From Gammaproteobacteria bacterium (lineage in GTDB: Bacteria; Pseudomonadota; Gammaproteobacteria; Ga0077536): a stretch of DNA of 39,053 nt. Numbering within the stretch: the stretch's first letter is position 1; each line of letters starts with the position of its first letter. Of this stretch, positions 16,567 through 17,514 are shown piece by piece. The notes under the pieces are model-generated. The model searched no databases and was not told the origin of the DNA. It saw only the letters and a program-made list of their open reading frames with translations. The stretch is taken from assembly GCA_030429865.1 (NCBI GenBank), contig JAUIFX010000020.1, positions 1 through 39,053 on the forward strand, given 5' to 3'. The position numbers were made by a program, and so were the translations under genes.

Positions 16567-16591
16567 CGGAACCGGGCACCGTGCGGTTCCG
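16567..16591. promoter_or_regulatory. Candidate upstream activator site (inverted repeat)
   Basis: Eight-base arms CGGAACCG (16567-16574) and CGGTTCCG (16584-16591) flank a 9-base centre. The repeat lies about 105-130 bases upstream of the predicted sigma-54 promoter, the distance range where enhancer-binding proteins usually sit. No known binding consensus was recognised. Confidence 0.4.
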
Positions 16592-16694
16592 GTCACGCGG
16601 CGCAGCGTGCCGCCTGGCGCGGCGCGCGTGCCCTTCGTGCGAGCCGCGCCGACCCGGCATTTCGATGCCCCCGCGGCCCCCTCGACTTCGTGGC

Positions 16695-16710
16695 TGGCAC
16701 ACGAGTTGCA
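16695..16710 (+). promoter_or_regulatory. Predicted sigma-54 (RpoN) promoter
   Basis: The sequence TGGCACACGAGTTGCA matches the -24/-12 consensus TGGCAC-N5-TTGCA. The essential GG (16696-16697) and GC (16708-16709) are separated by exactly ten bases. It points at the GGWMVAAA-repeat gene. A start about a dozen bases downstream of the GC would give a leader of roughly 50 bases before the ATG. RpoN promoters need an enhancer-binding activator, so expression would be tightly conditional. Confidence 0.65.
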
Positions 16711-16770
16711 ACGTGTCGGTGATGCCTCTGTACGTTACCAGCCTCTAGCGGCGCGACTGCGCCAATCCTG

Positions 16771-17514
16771 ATGCGAATGCTGCATGCCCTTCCGCACCCC
16801 GGCACGCCGCCGCTGCGCGACACCCCGGTGGGCCAACCGCGCGGCAACGATGCGACCGTCGCGAAGCCACCGTCACCCGGTACGGGGAGCGCGTTCGGCG
16901 ACGACGGCCTGACCTTTGGCGACGTGCTGGACGTGATCAACCCGCTGCACCATATCCCGCTGCTGGGTAACATCTATCGCAAGGTCAGCGGAGACAGCAT
17001 CGCCCCGGCCGCACGCATCGGCGGCGGCGCGCTGTTCGGCGGTCCGCTCGGTGCCGCGGTCGCGGCCGCCACGGTCGTGGTTGCGAGTCTCGCGAGGGGC
17101 GACGGCAGCGGAGACGACGATCCCGGCAATGCGGCGCCCCGCGCAGGCGGGCCCGGTGGCTGGATGGTTGCCGCAGCTCGACCGGCGCATGCGCCGGCGA
17201 CAGCGGATGACGCCGTACCGGCCGGCGATACCCGCGAAGCCGTCGCGACGTCGCCGCCGCCCGCCCGTGGCGGCTGGATGGTAGCCGCGGCACGTGCTGC
17301 GCCGCCTGCGGCCGGGCGTACGGCGGGCGAGCCACCGGCCGATGTCATCGCGAGCGCGCCGCACGCGGCACAGCCGGAACCTGCCACGGCGAGCACCGCG
17401 CCAGCGGCGGTGCGGCGCGGCGGCTGGATGGTGGCCGCGGCGTACGCCGTCACCGACAGCATGCAGCGCGAGGACAAGGACGCGCACCGCGAGCGCCTCG
17501 AGACCGTCGCCTGA
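16771..17514 (+). CDS. Low-complexity protein with three GGWMVAAA repeats
   Basis: This is a 247-residue protein of unknown function. Residues 46-105 form a recognisable module: FGDVLDVINPLHHIPLLGNI, an IYRKVSGD turn, then a Gly/Ala-rich membrane-like stretch (ARIGGGALFGGPLGAAVAAA). I recall similar 'INPL-H-P...GD...GGALFGGP' modules in uncharacterised proteobacterial proteins. The rest is Pro/Ala-rich linker in which GGWMVAAA appears three times, at residues 129-136, 167-174 and 217-224, each followed by an Ala- or Pro-rich spacer. The charged C-terminus (QREDKDAHRERLE) is probably helical. There is no signal peptide. The ATG lacks a clear ribosome site. A predicted sigma-54 promoter lies about 60 bases upstream. 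Confidence 0.75.
   Translation: MRMLHALPHPGTPPLRDTPVGQPRGNDATVAKPPSPGTGSAFGDDGLTFGDVLDVINPLHHIPLLGNIYRKVSGDSIAPAARIGGGALFGGPLGAAVAAATVVVASLARGDGSGDDDPGNAAPRAGGPGGWMVAAARPAHAPATADDAVPAGDTREAVATSPPPARGGWMVAAARAAPPAAGRTAGEPPADVIASAPHAAQPEPATASTAPAAVRRGGWMVAAAYAVTDSMQREDKDAHRERLETVA

Follow-up and report, generated by a model that had tools for sequence, protein, structure and literature searches.

The gene at 16771–17514 (forward strand), defined by the ORF list and homolog alignments and encoding a 247-residue protein, is a member of a widespread bacterial protein family that appears undescribed, and within the flagellar hierarchy it very probably (about 0.85) belongs to the tier under sigma-54. 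It lies in a stretch of 39,053 nucleotides, referred to here as the window. Read loosely, the combined statement that its product is a flagellar accessory protein is also favoured, though by a smaller degree. The family, promoter, enhancer, co-occurrence, neighbours and architecture described below were obtained by computation. Homologs share 36–67% identity with the ORF across the aligned part, and the length of the tail changes in frame, which argues that the ORF is real. In the window the gene is isolated, with a divergent neighbour on one side and a convergent one on the other, which we take to be a methyltransferase-like and a luciferase-like oxidoreductase gene, respectively.

Predicted sigma-54 promoter and upstream palindrome

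The initial annotation had placed a near-perfect -24/-12 element just upstream of the gene. This element, TGGCACACGAGTTGCA at 16695–16710 (forward strand), was identified by pattern matching and is kept 5' of the homologs; it fits TGGCAC-N5-TTGCA perfectly, with GG and GC ten bases apart. It is the sole match in the window at one mismatch or fewer; chance would give 0.42 matches at this tolerance, so one site does not settle the matter by itself. Indeed, one match per 39 kb is not rare at one mismatch, which favours the view that both the promoter match and the peptide repeat described below are coincidental. The 140–400 bases 5' of the conserved core were scanned with a simple 16-point score requiring both GG and GC, and random windows taken from the same loci served as the null. 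A score of at least 13 is reached at 21/21 loci of the window's class and at 29/37 alphaproteobacterial loci (null 6%), and one of at least 14 at 19/21 (null 0.5%) and 24/37 (null 1%), respectively. This conservation upstream of homologs, amounting to 50 of 58 loci in two classes, is decisive for the predicted sigma-54 site; it already refutes coincidence, against which the synonymous divergence of the repeat copies also speaks and which keeps a negligible probability. Within the homolog sites TTGC is near-invariant and the spacer shows no conservation. The rpoN gene is present in the window's genome and in 108 of the 112 alphaproteobacterial carriers of the family.

The feature extends beyond 16695–17514, the interval originally annotated, as an enhancer-like imperfect palindrome, GCGGCGCAGCGTGCCGC, is located at 16597–16613, some 82–98 bp 5' of the -24 element. 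It matches 9/10 bases of CGGCA-N5-TGCCG and is a candidate site for an activator of the FlbD/FlrC/FleR type. A de novo dyad search 5' of the promoter sites yielded GGCA-N5-TGCC for the Alphaproteobacteria; for the window's class it yielded a similar dyad that is one base longer (CGGCA-N5/6-TGCCG). At 9/10 or better the palindrome is found at 19/28 alphaproteobacterial loci (null 13%, P 5e-11) and, more weakly, at 9/20 loci of the window's class (P 2e-4). The null is high in GC-rich DNA, so that the window copy alone, at 9/10, is suggestive and it is the family-wide count that carries weight. The homolog palindrome CGGCA-N5/6-TGCCG matches the published flagellar enhancer bound by Caulobacter FlbD, CCCGGCA-N5-TGCCGGG (PMC3333781); FlbD is a sigma-54 activator of flagellar middle and late genes (PMC3930126) and resembles FlrC and FleR (PMC7064773). 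The combination of a -24/-12 element with this upstream palindrome is that of the FlbD/RpoN flagellar promoters (Caulobacter; FlrC in Vibrio, FleR in Pseudomonas), whereas the gene driven here lies outside the known hook, rod and flagellin genes and its activator is a candidate type. RpoN control, originally proposed from the single site, is thus supported beyond it by the conserved promoter and the FlbD-type enhancer, and transcription is predicted to start from 16695–16710. A second inverted repeat, GGAACCGGGCACCGTGCGGTTCC, occupies 16568–16590, just 5' of the candidate enhancer.

Other RpoN targets in the window's genome, for which a scan had been proposed in the initial annotation, were listed by sequence pattern only, giving fliK, fliL, flgB, a PAS histidine kinase gene and others. 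Consensus sigma-54 sites precede fliK, fliL and the PAS histidine kinase gene, and the flgB promoter is laid out like that of the family gene (GGCGGCAGCCCTTGCCGCC + TGGCACGAGTTTCGCA). Perfect TGGCAY-N5-TTGCW sites number 14, versus 7 in the control. The histidine kinase may correspond to FleS/FlrB, which would fit. Perfect sigma-54-like sites are also found before a bacterial sugar transferase gene (L208:1501-3005) and the gene of a PEP-CTERM protein (L219:537-1516), which suggests that the genome holds a second, exopolysaccharide-type sigma-54 branch.

Family distribution, core and tail

Homologs were found in 20 of the 36 genomes of the window's own family (window counted in), in two other families of its class, in alphaproteobacterial metagenome genomes and on Azospirillum plasmids. 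An even sample of 289 genomes from the Alphaproteobacteria, the class to which the Kiloniellaceae genome G191 belongs, contains 112 carriers (~39%). For the window's own class, the RpoN sequence and a flgB-flgG order that follows a CheV-like gene point to Gammaproteobacteria. Few bacterial machines are as well studied as the flagellum, yet the family has no match in Pfam, NCBIfam or PHROGs, and nothing was found in the PDB by sequence or by fold, core profiles and models included. Pfam C19orf12-like similarity is displayed by 3/61 members, with a best E of 8e-4. No Pfam match to FliJ or another export family, to FliL (PF03748) or to FliX was obtained, a C-terminal PEP-CTERM sorting signal was not found in the protein, and no literature on GGWMVAAA or NPLQHIP-type strings was retrieved. 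The Azospirillum brasilense plasmid homologs are annotated as hypothetical only, e.g. WP_059399650.1 of strain Sp7. The promoter is of a known class. As for the protein family, no description turned up in the libraries and open-access papers that were searched, in line with the initial claim.

The alignments show that conservation lies outside the octapeptide, in an N-terminal core made up of DxxNPLQHIPxVxxxYRxxTGD followed by a GxxxGxxxG helix. Based on alignments and AlphaFold2, this core spans residues 45–109 (16903–17097, forward strand; DGLTFGDVLDVINPLHHIPLLGNIYRKVSGDSIAPAARIGGGALFGGPLGAAVAAATVVVASLAR), and all positions identical in 61/61 sequences, namely N, P, P, Y and three glycines, lie within it. 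The GxxxGxxxG pattern is present in 58/61 members, versus 16% of shuffles. AlphaFold2 predicts helices at 49–55, 64–73 and 79–108, the third of which is 30 residues long and holds GxxxGxxxG, and a mostly disordered tail that includes a helical tag as well as a C-terminal helix; confidence is low (pLDDT 63), and also for the core of an alphaproteobacterial member modelled alone (pLDDT 70). The nearly invariant GxxxGxxxG helix is reminiscent of glycine-zipper membrane helices, from which the family differs in having a single helix whose hydrophobicity is borderline for a membrane span (20/67 reach KD 1.6). In the preferred reading the protein is probably membrane-associated.

Concerning the tail, the three identical GGWMVAAA copies with spacings of 38 and 50, pointed out in the initial annotation, are located at residues 129–136 (17155–17178; translation, codon comparison), 167–174 (17269–17292, a short helix predicted by AlphaFold2) and 217–224 (17419–17442, within RRGGWMVAAAYA, at the start of the predicted C-terminal helix), all on the forward strand. 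The third copy is also kept, together with its flanks, in the sister genome G001 (sequence same as L033), where the remaining gene is off the contig. Within the octapeptide, all codon differences between the copies are synonymous and fall at third positions (GGT/GGC/GGC, GTT/GTA/GTG, GCA/GCG/GCG, GCT/GCA/GCG), and their flanking sequences are unrelated, so that a recent DNA duplication is rejected, the protein sequence and not the DNA having been kept. The proposal that the octapeptide itself is under selection is hence sustained as far as peptide-level selection goes, but not as a description of the family, since it is missing from most homologs and strong conservation is confined to the N-terminal core. 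Its copy number varies, a point that had been singled out for checking: GGWM[VIL]xxA occurs in 0, 1 or 2 copies in relatives, and GGW[MLI][VIL] is found in 9/20 homologs of the window's class (three copies in the window, two in 6, one in 2). Near the end, AY[AGS] is found in 13/20 homologs of that class, and a M..AL.[KR]Y-like peptide in 28/47 alphaproteobacterial members, versus 0.1% of shuffles. As judged from these comparisons of sequence, GGWM is a lineage variant of the tail motif, with 0–3 copies. A degenerate pattern found no octapeptide elsewhere in the window's genome, and GGWM-type peptides outside the family, searched in 23 genomes, belong to unrelated proteins only, one of which is presumably a conserved cytochrome-b561-like membrane protein.

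Flagellar co-occurrence and neighbourhoods

With phylogeny ignored, flagellin is found in 101/112 alphaproteobacterial carriers versus 71/177 non-carriers (odds ratio 13.7, P 9e-19), in 98/108 versus 63/108 when restricted to rpoN-positive Alphaproteobacteria, and in 21/22 carriers versus 82/168 others in the sample of the window's class. It is also present in 9/9 genomes behind L026–L034. Carriers with no detected flagellin are 11 of the 112 Alphaproteobacteria and one genome of the window's own family (G010), many of them drafts; conversely, four flagellated genomes of that family (G009, G020, G023 and G033) lack the gene.

The linkage to flagellar genes gives support independent of these counts. 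In L148 and L156 the family gene starts one base after the motB stop, with a sigma-54-like site ahead of motA, and the surroundings hold rpoN, flhB, fliR, fliQ, fliP and a fliN-type gene. On three Azospirillum plasmids the family gene overlaps the end of fliI inside a flagellar cluster. Together with the flagellin co-occurrence and the FlbD-type enhancer, these motAB and fliI neighbours in relatives bear out motility among the conditional functions originally guessed. It should be noted that L148:1964-7864 and L156 derive from small-genome Alphaproteobacteria, where rpoN, motA, motB and the family gene lie within 6 kb, next to flhB-fliR-fliQ-fliP. Flagellin_N was not found in G206, although export genes are present. 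In L028 and L131, the FliI-like matches resemble ATPases of other kinds, rotary or helicase-type.

The place behind fliI is usually that of fliJ, the gene of an export chaperone. The Azospirillum arrangement, as well as the disordered body predicted by AlphaFold2, would suit a flagellar export helper, acting at the export gate (FliI/FliJ level) or being itself an export substrate. We consider this unlikely, given that neither FliJ nor another export Pfam family was matched, that the models contain no long coiled coil, and that elsewhere the gene is not near fliI. The resemblance to FliJ is one of position, none having been found in sequence or predicted fold.

In most genomes, window included, the family gene lies outside flagellar clusters, among housekeeping genes. 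A YkuD (L,D-transpeptidase) gene follows directly 3' at 29 of 40 alphaproteobacterial loci (L117–L155), sometimes within a few bases, so that one sigma-54 promoter may serve both genes. L053 contains a divergent paralog that lies opposite an SLT transglycosylase gene, with flgB and the other flg genes about 2.5 kb away. Such surroundings, along with the sugar transferase and PEP-CTERM sites of the window's own genome, are what a surface, adhesion or envelope factor would show if it were co-expressed with motility and not a flagellar part. The flagellin co-occurrence, the FlbD-type site and the linkage to motAB and fliI speak against this possibility, which we rate as low as the export role. 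The paralog in L053:2700-4808 and L054:54-2071 faces an SLT-domain gene, followed by one for a cyclic-nucleotide-binding protein, and G035 has both the paralog and a standard family copy.

A response-regulator gene is found near the family gene at 27/40 alphaproteobacterial loci. This, and a promoter of the same class as the hierarchy it would control, could indicate a FliX-like regulator that monitors assembly and exerts feedback on the sigma-54 activator. However, the neighbour is OmpR-type and not a sigma-54 activator, FliX is not matched, and the gene is absent in many flagellated genomes, which makes regulation slightly less probable still than the export or surface roles. Functional links to GTP cyclohydrolase II, YkuD, a PLP-binding protein and the response regulator were considered and set aside, since the arrangement looks like a conserved order of housekeeping genes and not an operon, perhaps with the exception of YkuD.

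Proposed role at the flagellar base

The preferred reading, membership in the sigma-54 tier, can be extended to a mechanism, in which transcription itself, membrane location, docking and the partner are what we infer. The locus would form a transcription unit of one gene within the sigma-54 (middle/late) flagellar hierarchy. After completion of the flagellar base, an activator of the FlbD/FlrC/FleR type would bind at the palindrome and allow an RpoN-dependent start from 16695–16710. The N-terminal core, with two short helices around NPLxHIP and then the long glycine-zipper helix, would anchor the protein in the inner membrane or drive its self-association near the flagellar base. The disordered Pro/Ala tail would present partner-binding peptides, GGWM[VIL]xxAYA here and MxxALx[KR]YxxM in Alphaproteobacteria, and repeated copies would provide higher avidity. 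The partner may be a stator or basal-body component, as suggested by homologs behind motB or fliI. This specific picture, in which an accessory associated with the membrane or with itself sits at the flagellar base and docks a partner through short tail peptides, is drawn from architecture and neighbours and is tentative. No firmer is the wider proposal that the family, present in more than a third of the sampled Alphaproteobacteria and in parts of at least one other class, is an unrecognised motor or assembly-base component that recruits stator or peptidoglycan-remodelling partners via lineage-specific duplicated docking peptides on its disordered tail.

If it were a motor or stator accessory, it would be a component that the parts lists of model organisms may have missed, with its sigma-54 promoter and flagellar-type enhancer kept across two classes. 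The closest analogy is with FliL and other MotB-associated stator factors, which share the sigma-54 site, the flagellar co-occurrence and the position of a family homolog in a motA-motB unit; unlike FliL, the family has no FliL Pfam match and an unrelated sequence, and the window's genome has a separate fliL. The Azospirillum brasilense homologs make the family directly testable.
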